From Cyanobium sp. CH-040 (GTDB lineage Bacteria > Cyanobacteriota > Cyanobacteriia > PCC-6307 > Cyanobiaceae), in contig NZ_JAGQCJ010000001.1 in NCBI RefSeq assembly GCF_024346135.1, forward strand, positions 434,001-498,000: 64,000 bases of DNA, in the 5' to 3' direction. A program made the translations under genes and the position numbers. This document shows positions 12,520-60,410 of this stretch, piece after piece; the first letter of the stretch is position 1, and each line of letters opens with the position of its first letter. The notes beneath the pieces are model-generated. The model had not been told where the DNA came from and did not search any database. It worked only from the letters and a program-made list of their open reading frames with translations.

Positions 12520-12529
12520 CCTACCGCCG

Positions 12530-13117: not shown

Positions 13118-13118
13118 C

Positions 13119-14479: not shown

Positions 14480-14561
14480 GGCGGGGCGACGGACAGGGCT
14501 GGCTCGACCGTACTCAATGGCGGCCACTTCTAGGATCCGCCCACCTGCTTCGAGGCCCCGC

Positions 14562-14822: not shown

Positions 14823-14825
14823 GGC

Positions 14826-16756: not shown

Positions 16757-16774
16757 CGGGCGCTCACCGGACCC

Positions 16775-18226: not shown

Positions 18227-18315
18227 CAGTTCGGCCCCGGAGGTCGCCACGCCACGCGGCTTGGTTGAGCTGCTCAAATGTATGGGCACCGCCCCGGCCG
18301 CCGCCGCCGGCCCCC

Positions 18316-40080: not shown

Positions 40081-40503
40081 TTCACAATCAACTAGTTTGG
40101 TGAAGGTACTGACTGAAGTGCTTCATGGATCTTTTGGTCCATGTTTAGCCGATCGGAATCTGCATTCCACAGCGCATCGAGCTGCATTTGCTTATTTTCT
40201 AGGTGCAAGAGATGCCAGAGTTTGAGAGCGACGTTAACGCTTGAGGGCTGCCATGAAATCTACGCTGGGCCATGTAACTGCTTTCCTTGCCTCTGCCAAC
40301 ATTAACAAGTTTACTGCCGTTGGCGACTTGTCGCATCAAGATGCCACACTATCAATGGAGAAAAATTGGAGTAAGGTCACTGTATTCTCCTCCCCGTAAG
40401 CCAGCTTTGTTGCTCGGAGAAGGCTCCTTGAGGGGATGCTTGTTGTCAGTTCTCTGCAAGGGAAACGGCTAAGTGCATATCTTTATGAGCTGCCAGAGTC
40501 TAA
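40081..40503. other. Left edge of island 2
   Basis: GC content drops just after the purE stop. No gene with family support is seen in these 423 bases; a 61-codon plus-strand frame at 40287-40472 lacks any recognisable feature. No tRNA-like fold or clear direct repeat was found by eye. Confidence 0.35.
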
Positions 40504-41523: not shown

Positions 41524-41560
41524 TCGATTTGGTTAACCCCTGTATTGAATACTCTCAATG

Positions 41561-42712: not shown

Positions 42713-42808
42713 TTACGACTCCAAATGGTCTAGTTCGAAGTGAGCGGTATGACGCATGCCCTTAGCCGATGTCATCCTTAAGGCCCAAGTCTTGCTGCAT
42801 GGCAGGCC

Positions 42809-43945
42809 TTACGTAGTAGACTCTGCAAAATGCTGGGTGATTGATGCGACTTTGGCGGCGACTATTTTCTGCTTGTCTGCAGTGAGCGCCAATCCAGAAG
42901 GGATATAAAATCCTTGTCGACTGAGCCTTTCTGCCACGGGACAATGAGCAGACTGGAAAAACTTCTTGGCTCTGAACACCGGCTGGAGGTGTAGTGGGTA
43001 GAAAAAGGGCCTTGTGCCAATGCCTGCCTTGGCGAGTTCGTCAATGAGATCGCATGCGAATAGGTTTTCTTGTTTTAAGAGCAATCCAAACACCCAGTAT
43101 ATATTTAAGGCAAAGTCGGTGCTGTCGACCTGCGAATGAATGTGCTGATTGGCTGCGAAGAGGTGCTTGTATAGCAATCCTATTTCTCGCTTCTTCATGA
43201 CTGTATGATCTAAGCGCTCGAGCTGACCGAGGCCAAGGGCTGCTTGAAGATTTGTCATGCGATAGTTCCAGCCTAATTCGTGATGCAGAAATCGCTGCTT
43301 TGGCTGGAAGCATAGATTGCGAAGGCTTTTACAACGTTCGGAAAGCGATGCGTCGTTTGTTGCTATCATTCCGCCTTCGCCCGTTGTGATGTGTTTATTT
43401 GGGTAGAAGCTAAATGTGCTGATGGTGCCAAAAGATCCACAGGGCTTGTCTTTATAGGTTCCTCCGATTAGTTCAGCGGCGTCTTCAATAACTGCAAGGC
43501 CTTGCCGGGCTGCCAGTTCAAGTATTGGGTCCATATCTACTGGCAGGCCGTAGATGTGCACTACCATGATCGCGGCGGTGCGGGGACTGATCGCGGCGGC
43601 AACCTGCTCGGGCACCATGTTCCAGGTGTTGGGGTCGGCATCGACAACCACGGGGGTAGCACCGGCTCGCACGATCGCAGCAGCGCAGGAGATGATCGTG
43701 AAGGTGGGCAGAATCACTTCATCGCCAGGGCCAAGGCCCAGAGCGGCCACAGCCAGATCGAGAGCTGCAGTGCCATTGGCGCAGGCAACGCCGTGCTTGC
43801 GCCCCACGCGGCGGCTGAAGGCTTCCTCAAACTGGCTTATAAACGGGCCTTCAGAGGAGATCCAGCCGGTGTTCAGGCATTCCATCACGAGCGCTTTCTC
43901 CCGTTCGCCTATCACCGGCTCGTTGACGGGTATGAAGTCGCTCAT
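42809..43945 (-). CDS. DegT/DnrJ/EryC1/StrS-family sugar aminotransferase
   Basis: This roughly 378-residue PLP enzyme makes an amino sugar on a nucleotide carrier. It starts at ATG 43945 (MSDFIPVNEPVIGEREKALV), overlapping the previous gene's stop (ATGA). Motifs are GVACANGTAALDLAVAALG, GDEVILPTFTIISCAAAI, VIEDAAELIGGTYKDKPCG, the PLP lysine in FYPNKHITTGEGGMI, and NYRMTNLQAALGLGQLERLD. The 5' half is high-GC and the 3' half low-GC, suggesting a recombined gene. With the methyltransferase and cupin it forms a three-gene unit. Confidence 0.92.
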   Translation of the reverse strand: MSDFIPVNEPVIGEREKALVMECLNTGWISSEGPFISQFEEAFSRRVGRKHGVACANGTAALDLAVAALGLGPGDEVILPTFTIISCAAAIVRAGATPVVVDADPNTWNMVPEQVAAAISPRTAAIMVVHIYGLPVDMDPILELAARQGLAVIEDAAELIGGTYKDKPCGSFGTISTFSFYPNKHITTGEGGMIATNDASLSERCKSLRNLCFQPKQRFLHHELGWNYRMTNLQAALGLGQLERLDHTVMKKREIGLLYKHLFAANQHIHSQVDSTDFALNIYWVFGLLLKQENLFACDLIDELAKAGIGTRPFFYPLHLQPVFRAKKFFQSAHCPVAERLSRQGFYIPSGLALTADKQKIVAAKVASITQHFAESTT

Positions 43946-44688
43946 CGCCTTTGCAGCACCAGACATATTCCCCAGGTGGCTTGCGACGGCGGTGCCCCGC
44001 TCAACCATTCTTCGGCGGTGAGGCGCTCGAAACCTGCGCTTTCGGCTAGTAGGTCGAGTTCAGGGAGTGAGAAGTGGCGCATCGGGTGGGTTTCTTCAAA
44101 GGTCTGTATGGTGCCTGTGCTGAGTTCCTGGGCCATCACGGTGTAGTGCACGTCAACCCGGTTTTCGTTGGGGTGGACTGTGGGCTCGGCAATTCGGATG
44201 ATGGAGAGATCCTCGCTTTGGAGGCGCTTGACGCGCAGTTCGGGGCGCTGGGCGGCGACGGCCGGGGAGTACCACACATCAAAAAGGAACAGGCCGCCAG
44301 GGTGGAGGTGGCGGGCCGCATTGGCGAACACGGCCTGAACGTCAGGGTTACTGGTTTGGTAGCTCACTACATGGAACAGAGCCAGGACGGCGTTGAAGCG
44401 GCGCTCCAACTGGGTGCTGTTGATGTCGCATTGTTGGCAACTGAAGCCTGGTGTCCGTTGGGCGTTGGCTACCATGGCTGCGCTGCGCTCCAAGCCGTGC
44501 ACGCGATAGCCGCGTTGGGCGAGCAGGCAGCCGTGGCGTCCGGTACCGGAGCCGAATTCCAGCAGATCACGACCAGCGATGCGGTGGCGCTGGAGCAAAG
44601 CTTCAACGTAGGCGACTTCCGCAGAAGTATTTTTATCACGGTAGAGCAGGTCGTAGTAGCGGCTGCTGGCTTCAAAGGGATCGTTCAC
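43942..44688 (-). CDS. Class I SAM-dependent methyltransferase
   Basis: This 248-residue protein has a GTG start at 44688. The SAM site is LLEFGSGTGRHGCLLAQRGYRVHGLE, followed by FNAVLALFHVVSYQ and HLHPGGLFLFDVWY. It lies between a cupin gene and the DegT aminotransferase, with an 11-bp triplicated repeat just before its start and a 4-bp overlap at its end. It may N- or O-methylate the sugar made by the DegT protein. Its GC is higher than most of the island. Confidence 0.88.
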   Translation of the reverse strand: MNDPFEASSRYYDLLYRDKNTSAEVAYVEALLQRHRIAGRDLLEFGSGTGRHGCLLAQRGYRVHGLERSAAMVANAQRTPGFSCQQCDINSTQLERRFNAVLALFHVVSYQTSNPDVQAVFANAARHLHPGGLFLFDVWYSPAVAAQRPELRVKRLQSEDLSIIRIAEPTVHPNENRVDVHYTVMAQELSTGTIQTFEETHPMRHFSLPELDLLAESAGFERLTAEEWLSGAPPSQATWGICLVLQRR

Positions 44689-44719
44689 GGCTTGATTACG
44701 GCTTGATTACGGCTTGATC
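44687..44719. repeat. Triplicated 11-bp repeat
   Basis: Three tandem copies of ACGGCTTGATY (44687-44697, 44698-44708, 44709-44719) cover the end of the cupin gene and the start of the methyltransferase gene. Because 11 is not a multiple of three, a change in copy number would alter the cupin C-terminus and the spacing to the methyltransferase start. Confidence 0.85.
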
Positions 44720-45139
44720 GGCACTGATGCCCTCGAAGCGGGTTTTGTCGCACTCGCCGGCATAGGGCCCCTGCTTTACTTCGATCATCTCGGTGGGTTC
44801 GAGCATCTCAAAGCCATGCCCGCCGTAAGCGAGTAGGATCACATCTCCTGTTTGGAGGATGCGGCTTTCAAGATAGGCGTGGTCGTCATCGTAGAAGTCC
44901 ACCCGAACACGGCCGGTCTTGATGAACAATACTTCCTTGGTGTAGTGAACCTCGCGTGGCACAGGGTTGTGGACATGGGGTGGAATGACATGGCCGGAGG
45001 GACGGTTCATGTAGCCTAGTTGCTGAGAAAACTCACTAGGGGTAAAGAATTTGATGCCTTCATTGTGAAAGCCAGCTCTTACAATTACCGCCAAGGTCCG
45101 ACCGCTATGACAGACTTGGTCTACCAGTTTAGTGGTCAT
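44696..45139 (-). CDS. Cupin-fold protein of sugar-modification type
   Basis: This 147-residue protein has cupin strand features: GHVIPPHVHNPVPREVHYTKEVLFIKTGRVRVDFYDDD (metal-binding His pattern) and GDVILLAYGGHGFEMLEPTEMIEVKQGPYAGECDK. Related small cupins sit beside DegT aminotransferases and methyltransferases in glycan clusters. Its ATG overlaps the stop codon of a truncated upstream frame (ATGA). Exact reaction unknown. Confidence 0.78.
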   Translation of the reverse strand: MTTKLVDQVCHSGRTLAVIVRAGFHNEGIKFFTPSEFSQQLGYMNRPSGHVIPPHVHNPVPREVHYTKEVLFIKTGRVRVDFYDDDHAYLESRILQTGDVILLAYGGHGFEMLEPTEMIEVKQGPYAGECDKTRFEGISADQAVIKP

Positions 45140-45297
45140 TGCTCAACAGTGGCTCTGTATGCATTCTCAATCTCAAACTTCTGGAGCGCGTTTGCAAACG
45201 ACCGATAATAGTTGTAACCTTTTGCATGCCAGACTTGAAGGGCCAGTTCCCTTGTCCTAGCGGAATACCCGACACAGAGGCTGGCTTGGCTCGTGGC
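45136..45297 (-). pseudogene. C-terminal fragment of a lost upstream gene
   Basis: The frame reads RTRELALQVWHAKGYNYYRS and continues ANALQKFEIENAYRATVEQ to a stop that overlaps the cupin ATG (ATGA). This overlap is typical of true operon neighbours, so it is probably the tail of a deleted gene rather than chance. The frame has no start codon and hits a stop upstream near 45340. I cannot name the parent family. Confidence 0.5.
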
Positions 45298-45698
45298 GTG
45301 ATTTGAGAAATAAGTGGTCTTCGTGAAGGTTTGTCATCCCCAGGGCGATGAACTCCCTTTCATCTACTCTGAATGTTTTGTGAACGAGATGTCAAGTGAT
45401 TTGTTCCTCGTAACTGCTTGCTGTTGCTCGTCGATCCTTGGAGTGCCGGCCTCGGACTCCCGACGGCACTGACCTGCACTGTGGGGCATGAGCTAAGCCG
45501 TTCGTTCACAAGGCTGGCCTGGAGCTAAGATCTGGATGTTTGATATCTACTCGACTGTTAGCAAGGAATCCGATTGTTCCGATCCATATGGTGGCCTAAC
45601 AGATTCAGGTGACCAAGTTTCCAGCCCAGGCAGACATTACCCTTGGCGGAGATCCTGCATGACAGGAGTAGAGTGGGAGATCTATTGCCATGAATCTC
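45298..45698. other. Gene-free stretch
   Basis: No reading frame above about 60 codons and no recognisable motif is seen in these 400 bases. GC varies along the stretch, which may reflect remains of older insertions. Confidence 0.35.
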
Positions 45699-46589
<891 letters not shown>

Positions 46590-46713
46590 GTCAGAAAGCT
46601 TCCAGTCTAATTTCTTTGTTGTGTTGCTTTATTGTGGGGTAGCAAGCGTGAATGTTACATGTCTTGGAAATATCAATGCAAAAGTAGGCTTGCAATCAAT
46701 AATGCTGGCCTTT

Positions 46714-47973
46714 CTAAGAATACCGTAAGGCGCCAGCTTGGATCGCCTTCAGCAAATGCTTCTTATGCCGTTCGATATTAATCTTCTTCTGATAGAGCCT
46801 GAGCGCATTCTTACTCATTATGGCAAGTTCGTGATCTGTAATCCTGTTAAGAATGCATGGGAGCAAAGACGGTCTAGGCGATATTATTCCGGCCTCATAC
46901 GTGCGAATCAGGCGAGAATACTGCCCCACCCTGTTCAGAATAACTGGCAGGCCTGCCCTGAGATATGAGGCTATCTTCCCAGAGGAAAGCCCAAGATGTT
47001 TCAAATTTCTGCCTTCCCATTGGTTTTGATATGTCGGCTGATAAAAGGCAAGGCCAACATCTGCTTCTAGAAGCATGGTTGAAACATCGTCAATATCAGA
47101 GAATGACTCTGTTGAGAAATAAATATTATGCCCGCCACGTGCTTTGAGCTTTTCAATCTCCTCAGCTCTTAAACCATAGCGATCGTGAATGAATAGGCAC
47201 CACTTGCTAGGCCAGTCTTTTGTGCTGGCAATTATTTTATTGGTCATTGACCAGCCATCTGTAGATCCTACCAAGATCGCAATCTTCTGATGCTTTATCT
47301 GGTATCGCTCTCGTATCCCTCCCTTGCTCTCACTAGTGCCGTGCCTCCTGTCGCGGAGGATAAGTCTTCCCCTAGGCGACACAGGAACTTCGATAATCTT
47401 ATCCCTTGAAATGTGATTTTCTCGTGACAGCAACTCTGATCGCTTCGGGTCCTGGCTAATCGCAAACTTAATCTTTCTGCACGCCTCAATCTCAGGCCGC
47501 TTAAAAATCTGACTGGTTTCGCATTCAAAGAAAATTTCATATGACAAGAGAGCGTAAGGGATGCCGGTAAGCGAAGAAAGCCTACTTGAAATGATTATGC
47601 CATCTCTGTCGACGCCAATAATTAAGCTTGGCCATATATGCTTCTCAAGAGTGTGGATGAGGCGAGATAGCAAAATCCACTTTGCGTGAAGAGTATTCAT
47701 CTCAGTGGCTTGCCTGAAGTATTTTCCTCTTAGGGTAAGAAGGTTGGCGCTGCAATGTCTTGAGAGTTCATCCTTGCATATGAATACTGGAGCAAGGACT
47801 GTGACTTGGTAGCCGGAATCAGACAATATTGAAACTATTCCAAGGAGGCTGGGATTATAGTGGATATTGCCCTCTGGGTGAACGATCAGCACACTCTGCT
47901 TGCTCCCATGGAAGCGGCCAGAAATCTTCGCCATGAAGTCATTTATAGTCATTGTCAACTTGGAATGGCTCAT
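46714..47973 (-). CDS. Glycosyltransferase, GT-B fold (GT4-like)
   Basis: This 419-residue protein has a Rossmann start (SVLIVHPEGNIHYNPSLLGI) and a C-terminal half with IAILVGSTDGWSMTNKI, ADVGLAFYQPTYQNQWEGRN and HLGLSSGKIASYLRAGLPVILN, in the order expected for a GT-B transferase. Family placement is approximate. An internal ATG at 47934 is an alternative start. It is separated by about 120 bases from the GT25 gene on the same strand. Confidence 0.8.
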   Translation of the reverse strand: MSHSKLTMTINDFMAKISGRFHGSKQSVLIVHPEGNIHYNPSLLGIVSILSDSGYQVTVLAPVFICKDELSRHCSANLLTLRGKYFRQATEMNTLHAKWILLSRLIHTLEKHIWPSLIIGVDRDGIIISSRLSSLTGIPYALLSYEIFFECETSQIFKRPEIEACRKIKFAISQDPKRSELLSRENHISRDKIIEVPVSPRGRLILRDRRHGTSESKGGIRERYQIKHQKIAILVGSTDGWSMTNKIIASTKDWPSKWCLFIHDRYGLRAEEIEKLKARGGHNIYFSTESFSDIDDVSTMLLEADVGLAFYQPTYQNQWEGRNLKHLGLSSGKIASYLRAGLPVILNRVGQYSRLIRTYEAGIISPRPSLLPCILNRITDHELAIMSKNALRLYQKKINIERHKKHLLKAIQAGALRYS

Positions 47974-48224
47974 TTGCGGGTATCAATCTTAACTTGAATG
48001 GCTTTGGCTGGTATCTTGATATTTGCCAGGATCGCAAGCACGGCGTTAAGAGTCATCATGAGATAGTCTAGCTTGACCACGGGGAATGGTGCAGCGATTT
48101 CATGCCCGGTCTGGGTTGGTGAGTTGGATGCAGCTGCGACTTGTCGATTACGACCAGACTGTTTAGTTGTCTCCCTTGATGTGCCCCATGAGATTTTGTC
48201 CAGGGTGAATGAGAGTCCTCAGCC

Positions 48225-49060
48225 GGCCAGACTGGGCCGTGGCCTCCACAATGAAACGCACCAGGAACAAGGTGGAGGAGATCATCCGCTAGCTAAAATT
48301 CGCCGAGCAGGTGATCGTACAGGGCATGGCCGTCGACGCCGTCTGAGGTGGCATCAAAGGGAGGCAGCTCACCTACCACCCCTGGCGGCAGCAGTAAGGC
48401 GGCATGCAGGACGAGTAGGCAAGGCACCTGACCAAGATGGAGAAGGAGAACGCTCGGCTCAAGAAGGTGCTGGCGGACGCAGAGCTGTAGAAGGCGATGC
48501 TCAAGGATCTTGTTGCGCCCAGAAGGGTACCTTGCGGTGAGATGGGTAACTTCTGAGCCCGGAACGTTGTTGCGATGCAAGGGTTCACCTCACTCTCCTG
48601 AAGGGTTTTCTCTATTTGGTGGCGAACATGATCTCATCTCCAGAGCTGTGCTGAGTAGGCAACTCTCCAACAGCCTTGACACGGAGTTCTGTCTGGATGC
48701 CCTAGAGATGTCGCCGGGAGATGGCCGCAAGCTAGAGGTCTTCCACTCCGATCAGTGTTGCCACCTCATGTCATCTGACTTCGTGGCGAGGCTGCAAGCA
48801 GAGGAGACCTAGGTCAGCTGGTCAGGTCGAAATGGCTGTTACGACATCATCCTCGTTGAACGGCTGTAGAGAACCGTCATGTGCGAGGAAGTCTATCTAC
48901 GTGCCTACAAGGATGGCTGGGAAGCTGAGATCAGCCATGCCCGCTTCTTGTGGTGGCATGCCATGGAAAATTCCACAGGTCTCTGGGAGGCAGAACTCCC
49001 AATGAGGTCTACACTGAAACCGAATTCATCTCCTCCCGTCCAGGGTTAACGACTTTAGGG
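48225..49060 (+). mobile_element. Decayed mosaic IS3-family element
   Basis: An OrfA-like part (48250-48510) reads KVEEIIR, then LKFAEQVIVQGMAVDAV and MEKENARLKKVLADAEL with several stops. It is followed by the C-terminal part of an IS3 OrfB integrase of a different subgroup (LEVFHSDQCCHLMSSDFVARLQAEE, then YDIILVERL, EEVYLRAYKDGWEAEISHARF and TPNEVYTETE). The middle of OrfB is missing. This looks like two IS3 copies joined by deletion. It is inactive. Confidence 0.82.
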
Positions 49061-49246
49061 GCCACTTCTGTCTAATAATAGGCCCACACCTCAAACCATC
49101 ATCAGGCCTGGACCGATTATGGGGTCACGTCACAGGTGCTGAATCACAAGCCGCAAGCTGCCCTTCTGGGCCAGGCGAGCATTGGGGCGGCTATGCATGA
49201 GTGTGAGGTCGGGGTTGGTGGGTCGCACCTCAACCCGTAGTGGCCT

Positions 49247-49256
49247 CCCCCCCCCC
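49247..49256. repeat. Poly-C tract of 10
   Basis: A run of ten C bases lies about 60 bases beyond the 3' end of the sulfotransferase gene and outside any supported coding frame. It is a slippage-prone site but has no obvious effect on a gene. Confidence 0.8.
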
Positions 49257-49313
49257 TGTCACTGAACGACCTGATGAGACAGAACATTTAGAGCGATCGG
49301 GCTACTTGGGGAC

Positions 49314-50099
49314 TCACCATGGAAGTCTGCGCTGAAGAAGGGTAGAAAGACGGTTAATCCCCTCAGAAAACTCCGCATGCAACTTCTTGCGTGCATAGCT
49401 GGATATGGCAGGGTAATGCGAAAAGGGTTTTGCTCCCTTTGGAGCCTGAGGAATGACCACTCTCTCAAAACCTGGAGTGAACTTAAGGCACAGAAACTCC
49501 GATAGATGTTCCGCAAATAAGTTGTCCCAGCGAATCATCTCCTCAAAAACTATTACCAGAAACTTCTCGCGACCCCCAAAAGCCCTAAACCATCTTTCTA
49601 GGTTTGAAGCATAATCAAATGTCACGGAGTCTGTTGTTGCCAGGTGTTCTTCATGCGTGGTCGTCGAAACAAATTCATCAAAGTCTTTTGCATCCGGGAA
49701 GAAGCCCTTGCGCTTTAAAAACCAGAAATTCGAATGTAAACGTGATACTGGATCGCGAACTAACACCAAGAACTTTGGATCGGGAACCATCTCTCGCACA
49801 AGGCTTTCGACCCCTGGGGTTCTAAGGTATGAAGGAGTTGAGTCTAATAGGTACCTGTATCGGTTATCTCCACAGCAATTGTCTTTGAGTTGCTGAAAGT
49901 ACTCGCACGATGAAGGACTAAAGGTCTTATCGTAGTTCCAGGAGGCCGGGCATGCTCTGTCGAAGTAGTGGAGCTCCTTCCTTTTTGTCGAGCAGATCAG
50001 AGGGTGGCCAGCTAGCTTCTCGTGAACCGTAGATGTGCCACACTTGGCTTCGCCAATAACCAGGATCACTGGTTTCCTAGGGTCTTCCATGCGTGTCAT
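49314..50099 (-). CDS. Sulfotransferase domain protein
   Basis: This 261-residue enzyme has both PAPS-binding motifs: VILVIGEAKCGTSTVHEKLAGHP (5'-phosphosulfate loop) and KFLVLVRDPVSRLHSNFWFL (3'-phosphate site), plus KRKELHYFD and the LLDSTPSYL segment seen in heparan-type N/O-sulfotransferases. It has no signal peptide. It lies between two direct copies of an IS3-type element, so it may have been carried in by them. It would sulfate a glycan using PAPS from CysC. Confidence 0.9.
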   Translation of the reverse strand: MTRMEDPRKPVILVIGEAKCGTSTVHEKLAGHPLICSTKRKELHYFDRACPASWNYDKTFSPSSCEYFQQLKDNCCGDNRYRYLLDSTPSYLRTPGVESLVREMVPDPKFLVLVRDPVSRLHSNFWFLKRKGFFPDAKDFDEFVSTTTHEEHLATTDSVTFDYASNLERWFRAFGGREKFLVIVFEEMIRWDNLFAEHLSEFLCLKFTPGFERVVIPQAPKGAKPFSHYPAISSYARKKLHAEFSEGINRLSTLLQRRLPW

Positions 50100-50454
50100 G
50101 ATGTAGGAATATGTAGGTGTCGCAAAATTGCGCTAGTCTAGACATTAAGCAATGGGTTCGGATGGGTATTCGCAAGAATGCCTGATGAATTAGTGAAATG
50201 ATGTCCTGCTCATAAGTAAATCATCAATCGTAGATGTCGAAAATGTCAGAATGCGCTCGTCGCGGTTTTGATGACAGGTCGCTAAGCGAATGCCTTTGCC
50301 ATAAGGCTGCCCATTGGCGTCATATGTTATAGGGCTACGACGCCATTTTGCAACGCTGACGTAGGGCACTCCTGCTCGGACAAGGTCTTATGAGAGTCGG
50401 TGATCATGCAGCTAAGGAAACTCTGGATGTGACTTTTCAGCAGGATATTCAGTC
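50100..50454. other. Gene-free stretch before IS remnants
   Basis: These 355 bases lie upstream of the sulfotransferase gene and should contain its promoter. I see no gene or remnant that I can name. Confidence 0.3.
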
Positions 50455-50890
50455 GTCAGGAGCTGTTAGAGAAGCTGATGGGGCGTAAGACCATCGAGGA
50501 CCAAGGAACACCTCCGTCGGTTATACATCTCGCGATAGAGTTGTGGCTACTGGTTGTGCTCGTCCGAGCACTGGAAGGCCCTGCCGTAGACCCATTCCTC
50601 CAGCAGGGTGTGGATGAAGCGTTCGGCGTTGCTATTGGTGCGAGGTGTGTAAGGCCTGGTGCACGCATTTCGCCACTCTCCGGATTGATGGGCAGTGCCG
50701 TTGTCACTGAGCTCCGCTGGCAGTTGATGCCCTGTTCGGAAAAGCAGCCAACTGCACGGGCCAGAGCGCAACCAGTGGTGGCATTCTTCTCATCGGGGAG
50801 AGCCTCGACCTACGCCAGCCGGCTGGGATGGTCCACGGCGAGCTGGAGCTTGTCGTAGCCTCCCCTTAGGAACGTTTCTGTTGTAGGCTC
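50455..50890 (-). mobile_element. IS481-family transposase fragment
   Basis: On the minus strand, in more than one frame, are GYDKLQLAVDHPSRLA, LSDNGTAHQSGEWRNAC and TRPYTPRTNSNAERFIHTLLEEWVYGRAFQ. These are the catalytic integrase-core blocks of IS481 transposases. The N-terminal part is cut off at the IS3 element next door. It is a dead fragment. Confidence 0.83.
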
Positions 50891-50924
50891 CGGAAACCTG
50901 CCCAAGATGATAATCTTCATCTGG

Positions 50925-51955
50925 CCAGACTCGGCCGGGGTCTCCACCGCAGCAGGCACACAGTGGAGTAGATCATCCGCAAGCTCAAAGCCGCCGAGCA
51001 GGTGATCGCACAGGGTAAGGCCGTCGAGGCCGTCTGCGGTGTCATCAAGGGGAGGCAGCTCACCTACCACCGCTGGCGGGAGCAGTAGGGCGGCATGTAG
51101 GCCGAGGAGGCATGGAGACTGTCTCAGCCGGAGAATGAGAACGTCCGGCTTAAGAAGCTGCTGGCAGAGGCCGAGTAGGAGAAGGATATGCTCATGGATT
51201 TCGCCGAGGGAAGCTCTTGAGCCCAGAACGTCGCCGGATGGCCGTTCTGGTCTTGCAGGAGCGTTGCCGTGCCTCAGAACGCTTCACCTGCCGGGTGGTG
51301 GGCCAGCATCGCAGCACCCGACGTCACCCCGGCAAGGTCGTCGACCTGGAGAAGGCCGAGCTGAGGGATCGTCTCCGCCAGATCGTTGTTGAGCACATTC
51401 GTTGGGGCCGCCGCATCACCTACCGCCTGCTCTTGCCGCAGGGCTGGAAGGTGAATTCCAAGCGGGTGCAATGGCTCTGGCGGGATGAGGGCCTGCAGCG
51501 GCTCACCCCCAGGAAGTGCAGGCGGGCCCGGCCAGCGGACGGCTCGGTGAGGCGTCACAGGGCCGTGCATCCCCACCAGGGTTGGGCCGGCGGTGCAAGG
51601 TCAGGATTGTGGTCTCGGTGTTGGACAAGCTCACCAGCCTCTACCCGGCACCAGCGTTCCTCTGATCGGACTGCGGACCGGAGTTCATTGCCCATGCTCT
51701 GCGGGACTGGTATGAGGCCAGCACCACCATCAGATCGGCTGCCATCGAGCCAGGAGCCAGGTGGGAGAACGGCTTCGCCGATTCGTTCAACGGACGGTTT
51801 AGGGATAAGTTACTCAACACCGAGCTATTCACCACTGCTCCCGAGGCTCAACTCATCGCTGATCGCTGGCGCTGCTAGTCCAACACGATCAGGCCACATT
51901 CGACCTTTGAAGGGCGTACCCCCCTCGAGGCAGCTCAACAAGATGCTGCAGCGTG
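50925..51955 (+). mobile_element. Decayed IS3-family element (IS407-like)
   Basis: OrfA: IIRKLKAAEQVIAQGKAVEAV, TYHRWREQ, NENVRLKKLLAEAE with stop codons. OrfB: an open frame from 51217 carries RRRMAVLVLQERCRASERFTCRVVGQHRSTRRHPGK and WRDEGLQRLTPRKCRR, then a frameshift after about 51570. The rest is CGPEFIAHALRDWYEASTT, ENGFADSFNGRFRDKLLNTELF, and RPHSTFEGRTPLEAAQQ. It is inactive through stops and shifts. The OrfA part is a close copy of the one at 48.25 kb. Confidence 0.85.
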
Positions 51956-52256
51956 ACCACGACCATCCACTCTCATCAGCTCTGGACCGATTGGGAGGCT
52001 TCAGAGCCGTTAACCCCTCTGGAGATGGAGAATGCCCGCTTCAGGATGCTTTTTGCCGAGCACGAACTGGAGAAGGCAGTGCATAGGGGAGTTGTCGAAG
52101 AGAAACTTCTCAGGCCGAAACTACGCCGCAGAGTCGTGGTGGCCTTGCGGCGTAGTTTCCGGTATCGAAGCGAATCGCCTCCAGAGTTGTGGGCTAACAG
52201 GACTCATTGGGCTACGTTAAGCCCGTTCCTCGCTGCTTCGCAGACCCTGGTTCATT
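51956..52256 (+). mobile_element. Second IS3-type remnant
   Basis: A short tail of OrfA (ENARFRMLFAEHELEKAVHR) is followed in shifted frames by the N-terminus of an OrfB (RRRVVVALRRSFR, then VVGQQDSLGYVKPVPR). It follows directly on the preceding element. Only about 300 bases remain. Confidence 0.68.
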
Positions 52257-52529
52257 GTGCAGACCTGGCGGCGGGCGATCATCGAATTTCGTACCCATCT
52301 CCTGACTACCTCTCCTGCAGATTTAGCTCCATGGGTTGATCCCTCTGCTGTGCGTTTCCCGCCTTATGCAGATGTTGGTTTTGGTCATCGATTGACGCAC
52401 TGGTATGCATCACTGCCTACTGCCGTATCCTGTCTTCGAAATGGGGGAGCGATTTACTCTTTTCTTAAAGCTATCTTCAGGCTATTCTTGTCCTGGCATG
52501 CTGATGGCCTTTTGAGGCCCAATCAATGA
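52257..52529 (+). CDS. Short protein or truncated glycan gene
   Basis: The 90-codon frame begins with GTG at the edge of an IS3 remnant and its stop overlaps the next gene's ATG (ATGA). The peptide has FPPYADVGFGHRLTHWYASLP and a hydrophobic end (FLKAIFRLFLSW). I recognise no family. The start-stop overlap suggests it is the tail of a real gene that lost its front when the IS entered. Confidence 0.45.
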   Translation: MQTWRRAIIEFRTHLLTTSPADLAPWVDPSAVRFPPYADVGFGHRLTHWYASLPTAVSCLRNGGAIYSFLKAIFRLFLSWHADGLLRPNQ

Positions 52530-53542
52530 CTAAAGCCTGCTTTCTGATGCTTGTTACTCCTCCTGATGCGCAAATTGCCAGGTATTCTATTCGGGCCGCC
52601 GTGAGTGCATTGAGCGATGATGTACACTTAATGCTATACTTTAATGGATGTCCCCCGTCCCTTCAGTGCAGCATTATTGCGCAATTGCCGGTATCGCCTT
52701 TTATCTTCAGTGCTTCAAACTGGGACGAGGTGATTCGAGTTCCAGGGGATGTCGCGGGCATGATTGGCAAGAAGATTAGATCAGATCTCTTTCAGGAAAC
52801 CCGTGAAAGATTCTAAGAAACCTGTGGAGAAGTCTGGAGCCGAGAGCTAATTCGGCTTGCAGGCTATGACTTCGTGGGATTACTTGACGCAGATTGCGAG
52901 ATCCTGGATAGAAGACTTCTTATTGATATGGACAACATTCTCGAGCCTAGGAAGACTGTCGCAGTCATATCAACTGACTACTCGAATACCGAATACTACT
53001 ATGACACTTACCAAGGCCAAGCTGGCTATCTAATGAAGCGGTATCACACTTGGTGCTGTCTATATCGACGTTCCGCGCTGCTTTCTTGTTCGGATTTCTG
53101 GTACTATGAAGATAAATCGGGAGGGCTTCTAAGGATCTACGACCATGCATCATATTTGCAGCATGAGCTTGAAAAAAGTGGATACCGAGGAATGACACTA
53201 GGCGGAAGGCATGGTTGGCGATTTATTCATTATGGGCAATTTGCAAAGAATAAATCTTTGAATGGTTGGGCCTTGGGGGTCTATCTTCTTATTCGTCAGC
53301 TAGGCCATAATGGACTTCTTCGCGTTCACGGTTCTGAGTATTATGCCAGACTGCTCGCCGAAGTAGGTAACATGCTTTTCAATGATCTTCGTCTTGAAAG
53401 ATTTGATAGAGAGCGGCTTAGGTTATTGACTTACGATGAAAGTGTCCGATTGGGATACTGCCCAAACAGCCGCAGCATTGAAGCTGAAGGCATGTTGTCG
53501 TGTGGAAGTTCTGGAAACTCTGCCTATTCAAGCGATAATTGA
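52526..53542 (+). pseudogene. Glycosyltransferase-like gene with an internal stop
   Basis: One continuous frame of 338 sense codons is broken only by a TAA at 52814 (codon 97). Before it: MTKACFLMLVTPPDAQIARYSIRAAV and HLMLYFNGCPPSLQ. After it: ELIRLAGYDFVGLLDADCEI with a DxD-type motif, and RRSALLSCSDFWYYEDKSGG. This looks like a GT2/GT-A type glycosyltransferase. The single stop could be a recent mutation or a read error. A start at 52874 (downstream of the stop) would make a 222-residue fragment. Confidence 0.72.
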
Positions 53543-53740
53543 CTTGAGAGCATGACTCATGGCAGAGTTGCTAAGTAGCCAAGAGCTTGGCACATCGGTT
53601 TAGGAGCAGACCACCACAGTTGTCCCACTTTTGTACGGGTCGGAGGGTCACTGAACTCCAAAGGTGTTTGTCAAAATACTACAACGCTGTGCTCTTCCTG
53701 CTGTTTTTAGGCTATTTAGAGGCTATACCTATGCACTCCT

Positions 53741-54895
53741 TTGATGCAGTGGCTATATGATTCATTCCTTGAAGCCAAGCGACCAACTGTGGCGCTCTCC
53801 AAGACCCTTCAGGATCTGATACTATATACACCAGGCCCTCGGCAGACTGGTTATGCAAAGACTATTGCGTTAGAGGCTGGCGGAGAATATCAAGTTGTCT
53901 ACCCTGCCTCTTCAACAACATTCACGCCGCCTAATCAAGATAACTCCCTTCTAGGTGAATTTCTCCTCCAGTGTGCCAAGAGTGATCACCCTGAGGTCTT
54001 TATTGCCTCATTCCCTAAAGGACGGTTTCATGCTGGTGGCGTAATCCTCTCGCCAGATGGGGCAACGGTTGCTCGGGACCTGTCTGAAGACTTTGGGAGG
54101 CCTTTTTCAGAGCACTTCTTGCTCAACAAGAGGATTAAGCGACCCCGTAGAGTTCCAGGCCCAGTTCTGTTTACAGGCGTCAAGGGGGCTTCAAGCTACT
54201 ACCACTGGTTAATGGATGAGTTGCCAAGAGTTCTAATAACGCCATCTGACTTTTTTCAGACTCTCGCATGTTCGCGGATTTCTGGTGTCCAGGCAGAGGC
54301 ACTCCAGCTCCTGCCTATGAAAGGTAAGAGGCTTATTTCGGTAGACAATGAAAACGGGAAGTCTAGCTTTGTCGCTGACAATCTCATTTCTCCATCTTAT
54401 TTGGCCGAAACGGGACACCCTAGTGATCGCCTTGTTCAGACATTGAAAGCCTTTGTTGAGCCACTTATCGACCGGACGACCCGATACCCAGAAAAACTAT
54501 ATATTTCTCGGAGAGGCTCTGGAAAGCGAGAGATCGTCGGCAATGGCGGCTTGGGCGAGGAATTGGGTCGACGAGGATTTACAGAGCTTTTTCTCGAGTC
54601 TATGTCTTGGCGTGAACAGGTCAATGCTTTCTCTCATGCCAGGGAGATCGTTGCAGCTCATGGGGCGGGGCTGGCAAATCTAGTCTTTTGCCGAAATACT
54701 CCACTTGTTGTGGAGCTTTTCAACTCCAAGTATGTGCACTGGTGCTTCTGGAAGTTGTCGAGTCTTGTGGGAGCAAACTATTTGCCCATTGCCACGCCAT
54801 ATGGCCCGGTGTCTCACCAGGCTGGCCGTAGCAATATTGAAGTTGCCCCCATAGACGTTCGAGGTCTTGTTCACTATATAGACAAGAATGGATAG
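53741..54895 (+). CDS. Glycosyltransferase family 61 (DUF563) protein
   Basis: This 384-residue protein has the full GT61 layout: GVKGASSYYHWLMDELPRVL in the middle, then EKLYISRRGSGKREIVGNGGLGEELGRRGF, EQVNAFSHAREIVAAHGAGLANLVFCRNTPLVVELFN. The YHWLxDxLPR and HGAGLxN blocks are the family signatures. No signal peptide. The gene starts about 200 bases after the interrupted glycosyltransferase gene. Confidence 0.92.
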   Translation: MMQWLYDSFLEAKRPTVALSKTLQDLILYTPGPRQTGYAKTIALEAGGEYQVVYPASSTTFTPPNQDNSLLGEFLLQCAKSDHPEVFIASFPKGRFHAGGVILSPDGATVARDLSEDFGRPFSEHFLLNKRIKRPRRVPGPVLFTGVKGASSYYHWLMDELPRVLITPSDFFQTLACSRISGVQAEALQLLPMKGKRLISVDNENGKSSFVADNLISPSYLAETGHPSDRLVQTLKAFVEPLIDRTTRYPEKLYISRRGSGKREIVGNGGLGEELGRRGFTELFLESMSWREQVNAFSHAREIVAAHGAGLANLVFCRNTPLVVELFNSKYVHWCFWKLSSLVGANYLPIATPYGPVSHQAGRSNIEVAPIDVRGLVHYIDKNG

Positions 54896-55628
54896 TCCTG
54901 TCTCTGTGTCTTGTCACTTCAATCGCCACAATCAGATGCCACTATCGCCCGTACGCCAGGCAGCAGTTTCTTTATGATAGCGATGCAGAGGAATCCGTGG
55001 GAGTCTGCTGTGTGCTTCTGCTCGTTGTGGGGATCATGCAACGTTCGGGCTGGCTCGAATTCCCGCAGGTGGAGGCTGCGCTACATATTCCAGCAGCTCC
55101 GATCTACCTGCAGGCCCCGGGTGCCTTTATCGACCAGAATTATCAGCCGCACGGTCTTGATAGTGTTGAGCTGCGACCACGTTGCCTTGAGGGTGTGCAT
55201 CTTGAAGTCGCCCGCACCCCGCATGATCTTGTGGTCGCTGAGCCCCAGACTCAAGGTTTGCCTCCTGGCTCCGGTGGGCTCGGGCTAGCCGGGAATTTTC
55301 CGGTCAGGGTAGAGATCCCGGATCGCGAGCGCCATCTCGCGGGTGTCTGGCTCCCCTAGCAACAGCTCCCGCGGGACCGCCAGCCGCTGGCGCTGCAGCC
55401 GGCCGGGGGGACTCACACGAGGAGCGAGCAATTGAAGTCTACGCCTAAGGTGAGTGCCTTTGCTGGTCAGATGAGGCCCCTGTAGTCGTTAACCATGGGC
55501 TTGAGAAGCAACTTCGTCCGCAGCATAGATCTCAAGGTCAGTTTCCCACCCAGTGCCCTGCCCCTCCCTCTGCTCAAGAAGGGCAACTTGACGTCTACCC
55601 ATCCCGATCCGTTCACCTTCCCATGACC
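54896..55628. other. Mixed-composition stretch with unassigned remains
   Basis: About 730 bases. GC rises toward the right. A plus-strand frame at 54997-55359 (120 codons) and minus-strand pieces such as LGLSDHKIMRGAGDF and TIKTVRLIILVDKGTR exist, but none forms a complete family domain. Given the decayed IS481 copy that follows, this is probably degraded mobile-element or gene debris. Confidence 0.35.
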
Positions 55629-56295
55629 CTAACGGAGTCGATCAAGACGTACCTCGAACGAAGCCTTTGTGGCTGATGTTCGCCTGCGAATGTGTCCCGC
55701 CTCAGCGCCATGAGGTCGGCTTCTCAGGTCCGTCAAGGACCTTAGGTAATCAAGGCGTGTGGTCTCATCCACGGCGACGTGGACCTTGTCGGAGCCGAGG
55801 CCGTAGGAGTGGCCGCTGGTTATCCGATTTCGCACCACACCAAGGTGTGCCATGCCATGCCTTGACTTCGATTTCGTGCATTAGGTGTCCGGGCCGCTCA
55901 GGCTGGTATCGCTGCACAGGTGGCCTCAGTTCCAGGTTGTGGAGGTGGCCGAAGCCGAGTCGGCTGAGGGTGCGCGCAACGAGGGAGAAGGGAGCCTGCA
56001 ACCGGAACTGGAGCTACCGCGCCCAGAGCGGCTACACATAACGCACGTCACCCGGCTGCTGCAGTGGTGGCAGAATGAGCGTTCGGCGGTGGAGGCGGAG
56101 AGCGTTGCTTCCATGCCATTCACTGCCGTCGAAACCCCTGCAAGTAGGCGGGCCAGCCACTCGTAGGTGCAGCGCAGGCTGATCCTTTCGTCACCAACGA
56201 GGTGCGCCGCTGGCCCGCCTTGATCAAGGAGAGGCAGTATGCTGGCCTCTAACGATGCACCATTCATCTGGGTTGTGCAGCATTCCGTGAATCGC
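55629..56295 (-). mobile_element. Decayed IS481-family transposase
   Basis: Minus-strand pieces in several frames match an IS481 transposase in order: a degraded N-terminal HTH region with LRVAGPPTCRGFD, RLGFGHLHNLELRPPVQRYQPERPGHLMHEIEVKAW, and GLGSDKVHVAVDETTRLDYL. Multiple frameshifts and stops break it, and the C-terminal catalytic end is absent or unrecognisable. It is a second IS481 remnant in the island. Confidence 0.78.
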
Positions 56296-56306
56296 ACTAC
56301 TTTTCA

Positions 56307-57080
56307 ATGAGAGGCCAGATGTACCAAGTCAGCGCGATTGGCCCCAGCCCTCTTATCAGTGTGATTACTCCTGTTTTTAATGGCATCCGCTTTATTGAGG
56401 CTTGTATTCACTCTGTCGCTAAAGAGGCTTGCAAGCTTGATCTTGAGCATATTGTTATCGATGGTAGATCGACTGATGGCACGGCGGAAATTCTGTCAGA
56501 TCTGGCATGTCACTATGCGCATCTGCGTTTTCTCTCTGAAAATGACCTGGGCCAGTCAGACGCCATGAATAAGGGAATTGGCTTGTCAAGAGGGCCAATC
56601 TTGGGCGTGCTTAATGTGGATGACTATTATGAGCAAGACGCCCTAGCCCGAGCATCTTCTTATCTCTTGGGGCTCCCTGAGCCTTCCATGGTAATAGGCA
56701 ATTGTCGGATGTGGGATGAGAACTCAAGACTTCTCGGTACAAATCGACCATCCCGGTTGACTCTTGACGATTTGCTGAGGCCAGGAAATGAACACCTCCT
56801 GCCCATTAATCCCACGCAATACCTATACCATTCTAGTGTTCATCAGGCGATTGGTCTTTTCCCAGTTGATGAGCACTACGTTATGGATCTTGATTTCTTT
56901 CTAAAGGCAGTTGCGGCGATTAACATTCAGTATTATCCTGAGTTGTGGGGCAACTTTCGCTTGATTCCTGGCTGTAAGACTAAACAGGACATAGACTCCG
57001 GTTCCGCCGAAGCGCGTCTTCAAAGACTGCTTCAGAGGCATCGCGCCCAGAATGGGATGTGTATGACTCATGGCGACTGA
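56307..57080 (+). CDS. Glycosyltransferase family 2
   Basis: This 257-residue GT-A enzyme has the GT2 start PLISVITPVFNGIRFIEACIHSV, then LEHIVIDGRSTDGTAEILSDL, SENDLGQSDAMNKGIGLSRG, and the DxD site in GVLNVDDYYEQDALARA. The C-terminal acceptor-side segment includes IHQAIGLFPVDEHYVMDLDFFLK-like sequence. It transfers a sugar with inversion. An ATG five codons in is an alternative start. It looks intact and follows the IS481 remnant. Confidence 0.92.
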   Translation: MRGQMYQVSAIGPSPLISVITPVFNGIRFIEACIHSVAKEACKLDLEHIVIDGRSTDGTAEILSDLACHYAHLRFLSENDLGQSDAMNKGIGLSRGPILGVLNVDDYYEQDALARASSYLLGLPEPSMVIGNCRMWDENSRLLGTNRPSRLTLDDLLRPGNEHLLPINPTQYLYHSSVHQAIGLFPVDEHYVMDLDFFLKAVAAINIQYYPELWGNFRLIPGCKTKQDIDSGSAEARLQRLLQRHRAQNGMCMTHGD

Positions 57081-57563
57081 AGCTTTTTTGTCAAGGCCAT
57101 AAGTATTCTGTCTCAGCAGTTTGTTTAGTGGTTAATGGGCTGTGAGGCCTCTACCGATTGAGGTGCGCCATAGCAATCCAGACCTCCTCCCGCCTCCATG
57201 CATTGCCAGCCGAATCCCAGCCTGAGCCCCACATGTCGCCTCCTACTCGTGATCGAGTGCTAGGAGCACGTCCGCAGCCTGCTCGAGTTGGCCACCGAAA
57301 GTGGGATCAGCCTGAGCAGCGCCTACTGGGGACTGGCTCGACCTCGGCAGCTTTGTCCAACTGCACTGATGGATCCGTCAGATGTCAATCAGGTTTGGGG
57401 GCGCCTGCATCACCACAACATTCACAGGACAAGGCCCCATGAGGAAGGCAGCCGTCTGAACCCTTGATAGCTCAGATTGCTGCAGCATGAACTGCGGGGC
57501 ATTGGCTCATTCAGGTTCAGCCTTTAGGAGATTTGGCATCAGGCTCTCCTTCCCAGGAGGCCC
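57081..57563. other. Gap with one unassigned open frame
   Basis: About 480 bases of rising GC. A frame without start codon at about 57268-57468 reads EHVRSLLELATESGISLSSA and on to RLHHHNIHRTRPHEE before a stop. It looks like a real protein piece but I cannot place it. The rest shows nothing recognisable. Confidence 0.35.
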
Positions 57564-58859
57564 TCAGTCACCTTTTAACACTGTTGTGGCAAATCCTGTG
57601 ATCAGTTTCTCCCACGCTAATGCTCCATTCTCATGGTTAAGCCAATTTTCTTGAACGCAGATCGCATTTCCCCTGAGTGATGAAATGCTGTCAAGAGCCT
57701 CTGTTATTGACTGGTGGATTCCATTGGGCGAAATATCTTGAATGGCCGGGGCTAGGCCGCCCAAATCCTCGTAAAGTCTTCTCATAGTCGACTCCATAGG
57801 AACAAGCGGAATCACGCCCGCACTTATGCATTCTAGAAATATACCAGACCCAATCGTCCTGTAGCGATCTGCATATGGCATAATCATGATGTCTAGACTT
57901 GTCATTATCTCGTCATAAGTAACGTCGTCCAGTCTCTGAGATATGTTCTGTACTCCATTGCTTTTGAGTCCGCAGAGTATCTCATCTTTGTTAAGACCGC
58001 TCTGAGTACACGCTAGATCTAGATTCAGTTTTGTGATCCACTGCACATTCGAAAATTGTTGATATTCTGTGAAATATCTTGCTAATATCCCAGGATTCTG
58101 AACTGAGCGCGATCCTCCAATGCACCCAATTCTCACTCTTTCGGTCGTTTGATGTGGCAAGTTGCGGCCTGAGAATCGCGAGCTTGCCGGATATGGATGT
58201 ACCGTTACTGAGCCATGATCAAATCCGCATTGAATAAGGAACTTGCGAATCTGAGGTGACTCAGCAAGAAAGATATAGCTCTTCGAGCTTTGGGCTACAA
58301 TTGACGCAGCATGGGAAAACTCACTCTTAACGATTTCAGGATTGTCGCAGTCCGGTGCCGGAAACGTCTCCATGACTCCAAATATGCCACCCTTGACGTC
58401 TCTAAGATCTTCAATCGCATGTAATGTTCCCGCAATCGTCAAATATCTAGAAGTGGGAAATAGTGCAAGTCTTGGAGTTTGCTCTGAGCATGCAAGGATA
58501 TAATCTGTGGTGCGCTTCCAATAGTTTCTGAATGCCAATGACTGTACTTCGCTCACTATCTTGCCGCTCGAAAGGCAGTGATCCGGGATAGGTATTGCGC
58601 TCTTCCAGTTGCTCGGTAGTGTGCTTCTTGCTTGATATGCACCAACTACTTCTACTGAGTAGCCATATTTCTCAAGAAGAGATGTGTAGCACACTGCCAA
58701 TCGCTCGAAATGCCCACTCCCTCCGGTCATTCTTGGCTCAACATAGATGATGTCCTTCTTTTCTCTGTCGTAAGCCAGCAGAAGAGCCTTCCGGCTCATC
58801 TCAAATGCTGTATTCTCATTCCCTTTCATCAATTCGTCAATAATAACTTTAGAGTTCAT
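57564..58859 (-). CDS. Glycosyltransferase, GT-B fold (GT4-like)
   Basis: This 431-residue protein has an N-terminal domain with DIIYVEPRMTGGSGHFERLAVCY and a C-terminal domain with VRIGCIGGSRSVQNPGILARYF, then SLDIMIMPYADRYRTIGSGIFLECISAGVIPLVP, the position of the EX7E motif in GT4 enzymes. Its ATG overlaps the stop of the upstream gene (ATGA), so the two are translated together. Substrate unknown. Confidence 0.82.
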   Translation of the reverse strand: MNSKVIIDELMKGNENTAFEMSRKALLLAYDREKKDIIYVEPRMTGGSGHFERLAVCYTSLLEKYGYSVEVVGAYQARSTLPSNWKSAIPIPDHCLSSGKIVSEVQSLAFRNYWKRTTDYILACSEQTPRLALFPTSRYLTIAGTLHAIEDLRDVKGGIFGVMETFPAPDCDNPEIVKSEFSHAASIVAQSSKSYIFLAESPQIRKFLIQCGFDHGSVTVHPYPASSRFSGRNLPHQTTERVRIGCIGGSRSVQNPGILARYFTEYQQFSNVQWITKLNLDLACTQSGLNKDEILCGLKSNGVQNISQRLDDVTYDEIMTSLDIMIMPYADRYRTIGSGIFLECISAGVIPLVPMESTMRRLYEDLGGLAPAIQDISPNGIHQSITEALDSISSLRGNAICVQENWLNHENGALAWEKLITGFATTVLKGD

Positions 58860-59902
58860 TGCTCATCCAGTTTGGTTAGACGTTCCAACTGATATGCCAG
58901 GGTCAGCTCCTTAGGGAGCATGTCTGCGCCAAATTTTGACTGCATTACTAGTGGCCTTGTGTTTAGCCCAAGCCATCCGTCGAGAACGGACCCTACGTCA
59001 AGTCCTATTCCTCCAAGTTCAGCAATTCTATTACAATAGGTCTTCCCGCAAATTCCTGCGCCAACAAGGAATAGCTGCCCATTGAAGCGAATTCTAAGAC
59101 TGTCTAGAATCTCGTTAAATCTTGCTGGATAATGTTGCTTCCAGCCTTCACCTCTTCGATTATATCTTGAGGGTACCTCATAGAAGTCTGTCTTAATGTC
59201 ATGGGCGCTCAATAGGTTGTGAAGCTCGGTGTGCCTGCTGATGATGCCAACCGATTTTTGAGAAACGATCATTCGAGCTAGAAACCCTGAGGCTGACATA
59301 TCGTAATGGCACCATGCTGATGCTAGTGGTGTGGTTGCAGGTATTAGATCTTTTCTCATCTCAAGGCCTAGTATTGCAAGTCTAAGCGCTGCTTCATATC
59401 CCAGTCTTTCTTTCTCTGCGGGCCGCAGCTGAAACACCTCTTTTACCTTGTTAATCAGATCATTCGGCTTGAGCTTCAGCCACCTTTCATGGAAATCTCC
59501 TCCAATAATATCGGGCCGTACTCCCACAATACTTGCATTTAGACAGCTTTGCTTTGTTAAAGTGGCTAGGCGATCAAGATCTTGCTGGCTGATCTGACCA
59601 AAATGAGAGGCTATGTAATCTCCCAATACTGATTCTGTCAAAAGCGGTTTTGCAATCGTTACGCCTTCGCCATCCCCAATCCTGATTAGAGAGAGGCCTT
59701 CTTGATTCGAAAGGCTTTTCTCGATCATTTCTTCTATCAGACTGCTTGGAAGGATCCGTAATGAGGGCGTAGGTTCAGGTTCTTCGTGGCTGTGTCTTGA
59801 GCGCGGTGGCATGGCTGGTTTTGTGGCGTGACGGTCGACTTGTTGAAGTAAGTCGTGTTCAACTGGATTAGCGCTTTTACCGCGGTGCAATTTGGGAGAC
59901 AT
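58856..59902 (-). CDS. GT-D-fold (DUF1792-like) glycosyltransferase candidate
   Basis: This 348-residue protein has EGLSLIRIGDGEGVTIAKPLL, which matches the IRxGDGE signature of GT-D enzymes, and LFLVGAGICGKTYCNRIAELGGIGLDVGSVLDGWLG near the C-terminus, matching their second signature (GaGxxgk and DiGsvxDxW). Residues 1-50 are polar, His/Pro-rich and probably disordered. GT-D enzymes add glucose to glycoproteins or glycans in Gram-positive bacteria; a cyanobacterial role is not established to my knowledge. It is coupled to the downstream GT4-like gene. Confidence 0.75.
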   Translation of the reverse strand: MSPKLHRGKSANPVEHDLLQQVDRHATKPAMPPRSRHSHEEPEPTPSLRILPSSLIEEMIEKSLSNQEGLSLIRIGDGEGVTIAKPLLTESVLGDYIASHFGQISQQDLDRLATLTKQSCLNASIVGVRPDIIGGDFHERWLKLKPNDLINKVKEVFQLRPAEKERLGYEAALRLAILGLEMRKDLIPATTPLASAWCHYDMSASGFLARMIVSQKSVGIISRHTELHNLLSAHDIKTDFYEVPSRYNRRGEGWKQHYPARFNEILDSLRIRFNGQLFLVGAGICGKTYCNRIAELGGIGLDVGSVLDGWLGLNTRPLVMQSKFGADMLPKELTLAYQLERLTKLDEQ

Positions 59903-60410
59903 GTATGCTAGCCATGGCCTAACATGAGCTTTGATTCAAGTGCACCGCGGTCTATGCAGTAGCTCTATGTTGTATGACCTCATTATCATTCGAGCTGCTC
60001 GCAATGCAGTGAATGAGATGAGTCGCCAAACGCTTTTTCCCCTCTGAATATCGGCTTGGCGCCTGCGGGGCTGGGCTTGGCTGGCCCTTTCTCGTTCCTT
60101 CGTCTTCATGATGTCTCTGGGTATGGTGTCAATGGCTTTGGCTCCGGCTATTTTTCCCGATTTGGCTCAGCTCTTTGAATCGGTTTACTGGCGAGGTACT
60201 CGCAGGGTTTTGCTTATTGCTACACTTAAATCCATTCTTAATACGCCATCTTGATCGAATTGCAGCATGTTGCGTCCGCGTCTAGGCGTTAAGCGTAGCA
60301 ATCTGCTGTCTTCATGGGCATCATGAACCTTGATATGGGGCTTTGTCACTTGTGCCACTGGCGTGGTGGCATGCATCCCCGTCATTGATTTGGTCCCTAG
60401 ATTTTCAGTC
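59903..60410. other. Right edge of island 2
   Basis: GC changes back to core level near 60400. No gene is supported in these 508 bases. Promoters for the divergent glycosyltransferase pair and the permease gene should lie here. No tRNA or attachment site is evident. Confidence 0.35.

Follow-up and report, generated by a model that had tools for sequence, protein, structure and literature searches.

The open reading frame P0001 of Cyanobium sp. CH-040, located at 58856..59902 on the minus strand of the 64,000-nucleotide stretch analysed here (the window), probably encodes a metal-dependent GT-D-like glycosyltransferase that forms one linkage of a surface glycan, the latter being built by a laterally acquired insert. 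The reading frame, for which the original prediction had given positions without a strand, is real; it starts with ATG, comprises 348 amino acids, is recognized by its PF22882 match and by a structure model, and overlaps the next ORF, P0002, by the predicted 4 bp (58856-58859). As a GT-D-like glycosyltransferase prediction the assignment is most likely sound, and mostly expected. It draws on the family, the predicted fold, the motif conservation and the island location of P0001, all of which are shown by the analysis.

In a profile search, P0001 passes the cut-off of the Pfam family PF22882, 'GT-D-like', with 43.1 bits against 27 (E 3.9e-11). This is its sole Pfam match and it falls into two stretches, the better of which spans 76 of 210 positions, the second being weaker. 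The NCBIfam model NF040628 (GT-D_rel) scores 31.5 bits, which is below its cut-off of 75, and would therefore not name the protein. There is no match to PF08759 (DUF1792) at E ≤ 1 in P0001, nor any in the whole genome, with a model that scores 214 bits on the positive control L145; a PHROG search with P0001 likewise returned no match. The proposed GT-D relationship thus holds with respect to fold and D-x-E motif, but not with respect to PF08759/DUF1792 membership, and P0001 is assigned to the separate GT-D-like family PF22882. Similarly, the wider branch of the family that had been anticipated does exist, but has already been curated as PF22882 and NF040628; the family is in the databases, and P0001 passes one of these two models. 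No demonstrated function for the PF22882/GT-D_rel family was found in the accessible portions of PMC5063993, PMC6493773, PMC9961541, PMC11231755 and PMC8205485.

Both predicted sequence signatures are found in P0001, i.e., IRIGDGEG (residues 73-80), which contains the proposed metal-binding D-x-E motif D77-G78-E79 (59666..59674, minus strand), and the C-terminal motif VGAGICGKTYCNRIAELGGIGLDVGSVLD (residues 280-308; approximately 58979..59065, minus strand). Relatives belonging to several phyla show the two motifs in an identical order and, since this order recurs and the PF22882 match (E 3.9e-11) lies above the curated cut-off, the family assignment and the motif pair would appear to be more than chance. 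According to our reading of the alignment, the PF22882 family may be defined by an N-terminal R-x-G-D-G-E followed by a C-terminal G-x-G..GK....GG.A.D.GS..D, both of which are present in P0001.

Conservation was evaluated in an alignment of 87 domains (A2; P0001 and 86 relatives), which leaves out the near-copies L086, L103 and L124 as well as matches covering fewer than 200 model positions or starting after position 20 (from L065, L069, L100, L109, L113, L122 and L128, plus minor second matches). All 87 domains match PF22882 and one matches PF08759; 82, including P0001, touch NF040628 at E ≤ 0.001, and two match the SP_1767 glycosyltransferase model. Asp77 is present in 87/87 rows and Glu79 in 86/87, the one exception reading D-A-D. 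Arg74, Gly283, Asp302 and Gly304 are invariant (87/87), and Asp308 and Arg316 are each conserved in 86 rows. Since D-G-E was itself part of one of the two search patterns, the 32 rows out of reach of that pattern were considered separately; they retain the aspartate in 32/32 and the glutamate in 31/32 cases. D-x-E, the loss of which had been named as evidence against a GT-D enzyme, is thus conserved, also in rows selected without the motif.

The AlphaFold2 model of P0001 based on A2 has a pLDDT of 86.5 and a pTM of 0.84; its quality is poor over the first ~45 residues. Foldseek searches against the PDB returned three matches at E ≤ 0.001, i.e., 5v4a, 4pfx and 4phr, all of which are DUF1792 structures, at modest TM-scores on the query of 0.43-0.48. 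VIA-align, which offers a second look at Foldseek's own match list, gave Z-scores of 14.5 for 4pfx (214 residues, rmsd 4.1), 14.3 for 5v4a (211 residues, rmsd 3.6) and 14.1 for 4phr (215 residues, rmsd 4.2). Hence, as the original prediction would have it, the top solved matches of the predicted structure are DUF1792/GT-D enzymes. The fourth match is the GT-E enzyme TagA (7mpk; Z 10.9, 170 residues, rmsd 4.2), and all further rows score 6.4 or less. This partial similarity could be taken to mean that P0001 is a relative of the GT-E (TagA/WecB/CpsF) enzymes instead of GT-D; however, the three GT-D chains lie at least 3 Z units above TagA over 211-215 residues, and the D-x-E motif conserved in the P0001 family is absent from TagA, which is described in the accessible part of PMC6493773 as ion-independent, making a GT-E assignment highly improbable.

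Sequence comparison points in the same direction as the predicted fold. P0001 alone had no match among PDB sequences. The profile of 87 sequences ranked GalT1 (4pfx/4phr) first, at a weak E of 0.11, with both motif blocks in register. When A2 was aligned by hhalign with four PF08759 proteins (L145, and L153-L155 from Lacticaseibacillus and Lactiplantibacillus plasmids; all above 165 bits), the probability was 92.9 and E 3.7e-7, D-G-E was aligned on D-G-E, and the glycine-rich motif VGAGICGKTYCNRIAELGGIGLDVGSVLD on GPTATVLAYDL..GYQAVDIGH of GT-D. In the DUF1792 enzymes, the Asp-X-Glu motif coordinates Mn2+, as reported in the accessible part of PMC6493773.

The P0001 gene sits inside a ~20-kb, low-GC insert at 40081..60329 (ends approximate), flanked by purE on one side and by an AI-2E-type transporter gene on the other. 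The GC content per 2 kb is 0.45-0.58 in the blocks at ~32-38 and 40-60 kb and 0.66-0.77 in most other parts of the window, a further low-GC block (0.49) lying at 8-10 kb. Seven congener stretches were fetched, and in the 4/4 congeners that show both flanking genes the purE-transporter gap measures 304-330 bp, versus ~20 kb in the window. In the same four congeners the distance from a methyltransferase gene to purE is 1.1-2.5 kb, versus ~7 kb in the window, which identifies the ~32-38 kb block as a second, smaller insert. The names purE, nagA, alkB, rluD and AI-2E transporter were read off translations and do not come from family searches. Lateral acquisition of the ~20-kb insert finds its best support in the lowered GC content and in the site being empty in congeners. 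One congener (L147, G078:C1:2905001-2925000) carries a different ~9-kb block of lower GC at 10100-19000, which separates cysC from the transporter gene and contains ORFs that we read as GT2-like, deacetylase-like and galE-like. Judging by these gene contents, the purE/cysC/transporter neighbourhood appears to be a hot spot for glycan cargo.

Sugar-handling enzymes surround P0001 within the insert. A group 1 (GT4-type) glycosyltransferase is encoded at 41561..42712 (minus; PF00534, 75.7 bits), a DegT/DnrJ/EryC1 sugar aminotransferase at 42809..44008 (minus; PF01041, 381 bits), a glycosyltransferase 25-type protein at 45699..46589 (minus; PF01755, 30.2 bits), a sulfotransferase at 49314..50099 (minus; PF13469, 39.2 bits), a glycosyltransferase 61 protein at 53741..54895 (plus; PF04577, 70.3 bits) and a family 2 glycosyltransferase at 56307..57080 (plus; PF00535, 72.5 bits). 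Among the ORFs of the insert that were scanned, which are part of the total, no polysaccharide polymerase, flippase or exporter was identified, for which reason the glycan product is an inferred one.

Fragments that read like transposase remnants are found inside the insert at 50478-52086 (plus). At 52526-53542 (plus), two short ORFs of 96 and 222 amino acids, which share a frame and are divided by a stop, look like one broken glycosyltransferase-type gene. Apparent gene fragments of this kind, together with the lack of a close relative of P0001 in any of the other genomes among the 299 searched in the order, would agree with an intact-looking but non-functional passenger of a decaying island. 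We regard this as very unlikely, however, in view of a P0001 frame that is open over 348 codons and keeps every residue invariant in A2, and of the preserved 4-bp overlap with an ORF that is itself open over 431 codons.

That overlapping ORF, P0002 (57564..58859, minus strand, 431 amino acids), is located by its coordinates downstream of P0001. Its description as GT4-like could not be established: at E ≤ 1, neither Pfam nor NCBIfam models match P0002, which likewise has no PHROG family match and shows no convincing alignment with the GT4 ORF of the island. Its single-sequence structure model reaches a pLDDT of 36.4. A distant relative, L131, alone touches GT4 models (Glyco_trans_1_4, 22.6 bits, below the cut-off of 27), and P0002 is possibly a GT-B-type glycosyltransferase. 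Besides its own genome, relatives of P0002 occur in only 2/299 genomes of the order; there are none in viral contigs and none adjoining the GT-D-like loci fetched from other genomes. A scan for promoters and terminators around the P0001/P0002 pair found sites no more frequently than in shuffled sequence.

Based on these observations, P0001 would be a Leloir glycosyltransferase of the PF22882 family, located in the cytoplasm and dependent on a metal. Asp77 and Glu79 are proposed to coordinate the divalent metal by which the nucleotide-sugar diphosphate is held, and the Rossmann-like C-terminal part (residues ~275-310) may help to hold the nucleotide. The genes of the ~20-kb insert would assemble a surface polysaccharide or a lipid-linked oligosaccharide, to which the enzyme would contribute one sugar; P0001 may be translated together with P0002. 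We infer the activity itself, the metal binding, the donor and acceptor, the polysaccharide product and the co-translation with P0002.

The domain architecture of the relatives bears on the choice of acceptor. TPR_19 is present in 23/66 long relatives, Glycos_transf_2 in seven, Gly_transf_sug in five and Glycos_transf_1 in four, counted over 66 of the 69 proteins of at least 380 amino acids (L068, L102 and L107:8714 were left out), and single relatives carry methyltransferase, polysaccharide deacetylase or sulfotransferase domains. These fusion partners, as recognized in the sequences, fit a role in glycan assembly. TPR repeats often bind peptides. The TPR fusions might suggest that P0001 glycosylates a protein instead of building a polysaccharide, by analogy with the characterised GT-D enzyme dGT1, which acts on Glc-GlcNAc-Fap1, i.e., on the adhesin Fap1, according to the accessible part of PMC5063993. 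The reaction that characterises GT-D proper moves glucose from UDP-glucose onto a Fap1-linked glycan. P0001, however, has no TPR match, although the prediction is poor for its ~45 N-terminal residues; general inspection of the insert revealed neither a repeat adhesin nor genes for accessory secretion, and the neighbours are sugar-handling enzymes. A protein target is therefore unlikely, and the synthesis of a surface glycan is retained as the preferred function.

With P0001 as query, matches come from 6/299 genomes of the order, one of these being its own, and a genome-contig search with P0001 alone gave no match. In the named genome collection the wider query A1, an alignment of P0001 with five picocyanobacterial domains, retrieved 85 relatives, of which 80 were kept; viral contigs yielded 12 loci, and matches were obtained in 3/386 genomes of the phylum, counting that of P0001. 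Relatives occur in four plasmid records, all distant, and in none of the phage records. Weak PF22882 matches in 25/299 genomes of the order, three of them over the cut-off, were excluded as family members because several are other proteins by sequence, such as the 220-residue ORFs of L019-L027 in our reading. Separately, a picocyanobacterial ORF of 334 amino acids (L029, G131) contains IIRFADGE and VGAGIGSLEVC..AIDAGH and may represent a further divergent branch of the GT-D-like fold, to judge from these motifs. Three tandem GT-D-like ORFs are found in the Deltaproteobacteria MAG HKST-UBA01 (L107, 5440-10447), two GT-D-like genes each in the IMG/VR viral contigs L122 and L123/L124, and giant-virus proteins with similar predicted folds in BFVD (Moumouvirus, Homavirus, Hyperionvirus).

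Most relatives belong to the Pseudomonadota (57/73 tree rows with a phylum label), and cyanobacterial members are also present. The nearest sequence, at 36% identity, is L034 from a Bacteroidia MAG. A tree built from 89 domains places P0001 together with L034, L035 (Acidimicrobiia MAG) and L036 (Pseudohoeflea) at an SH-aLRT support of 97, while six picocyanobacterial rows form a separate group (support 100) with P0001 outside. The tree suggests a separate transfer of the GT-D-like gene into the Cyanobium sp. CH-040 genome, which falls short of proof since a joint picocyanobacterial clade, at a cost of 14.7 log-likelihood units, is not rejected (AU p 0.25).

The sulfotransferase located in the same insert as P0001 (49314-50099) raises a special case of the glycan explanation, namely that P0001 works specifically on a sulfated glycan, as in sulfotransferase-bearing exopolysaccharide clusters of cyanobacteria. 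L036, which belongs to the same clade as P0001, ends in a fused domain that has no Pfam match and begins with what we read as a sulfotransferase-like sequence; we also read cysD, cysNC and cysQ-like genes near L036 and a sulfatase-like ORF at L034. In the same clade, cysN and cysC pieces are present at L035. Genes for PAPS synthesis are present at 5/92 GT-D-like loci, a count that leaves out two weak CysN matches (L048 and L105, E about 1e-7). At 46 loci, three such cases were seen versus 0.18 expected from a background of 49 CysN/C matches in 198 Mb; the resulting P of 8e-4 is rough because the hypothesis was prompted by the data themselves and because these 46 loci, out of 80 named ones, were hand-picked, albeit before the sulfation question arose. 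Most GT-D-like loci show no PAPS-synthesis gene, however, and a specific role in a sulfated glycan is in our estimation possible but not probable; a tie of the GT-D-like family to sulfated glycans is likewise possible on the strength of gene content. The cysC/APS-kinase gene of the window (61462-62121) was considered as support and rejected: no second copy was found in the genome, and all 13/13 genomes of the genus, its own included, contain a match, so that the gene is taken to be a housekeeping one. Outside the ~20-kb insert, a 318-residue ORF at 35092-36048 (plus) without a Pfam match begins with LLLHTGMPKTGTSAFQN, which looks like a sulfotransferase P-loop and resembles in kind the C-terminal part of the L036 fusion.

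A broader and more tentative proposal is that PF22882 constitutes a large second GT-D branch, exchanged between phyla and in many cases fused (to TPR, GT2, GT4, methyltransferase or sulfotransferase parts), which would share the D-x-E metal site and build sulfated surface glycans among others, not streptococcal adhesin glycans, with P0001 in a sulfated-glycan sub-branch together with L034, L035 and L036. The accessible parts of PMC5063993, PMC6493773 and PMC9961541 describe the GT-D fold via one streptococcal system, and the DUF1792/GT-D literature that was found consists of the streptococcal dGT1 work and reviews. No paper was found on DUF1792 in cyanobacteria or on 'GT-D fold domain-containing' proteins in mostly open-access literature, where such an absence weighs little. 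Our analysis ties a broad, little-studied family to the GT-D fold and the same D-x-E site, and offers in P0001 a small stand-alone member suited to assay. If true, the link to sulfated glycans would add an enzyme type to a cyanobacterial pathway of ecological and biotechnological interest.

Compared with the models of its own family, P0001 has both end motifs and passes PF22882, but falls below the NF040628 cut-off. The Synechococcus GT-D-like proteins (SynAce01, WH7803 and MAGs; L097, L105, L079, L099 and L106) share the Pfam family, the motifs and the cyanobacterial family with P0001, but most of their GT-D-like domains are located at the end of longer frames (464 amino acids in L097, 645 in L079, 728 in L106 and 1599 in L099; 305 in L105), and P0001 groups instead with L034, L035 and L036. 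The synechan cluster of Synechocystis contains two sulfotransferases, as stated in the accessible part of PMC8205485, and the insert has in common with clusters of this type a sulfotransferase within a glycan cluster. TagA (GT-E) resembles the predicted P0001 structure in part, at a lower score than GT-D. With the DUF1792/GT-D enzymes dGT1 (GalT1) of Streptococcus parasanguinis (4pfx/4phr) and 5v4a of S. sanguinis, P0001 shares the predicted fold and the place of D-G-E, whereas it is only ~14-15% identical to them, lacks the PF08759 match and has 'DVGS..D' in the region corresponding to 'DIGH'; in contrast to dGT1, it carries no second glycosyltransferase domain on the chain and shows no sign of an adhesin substrate.
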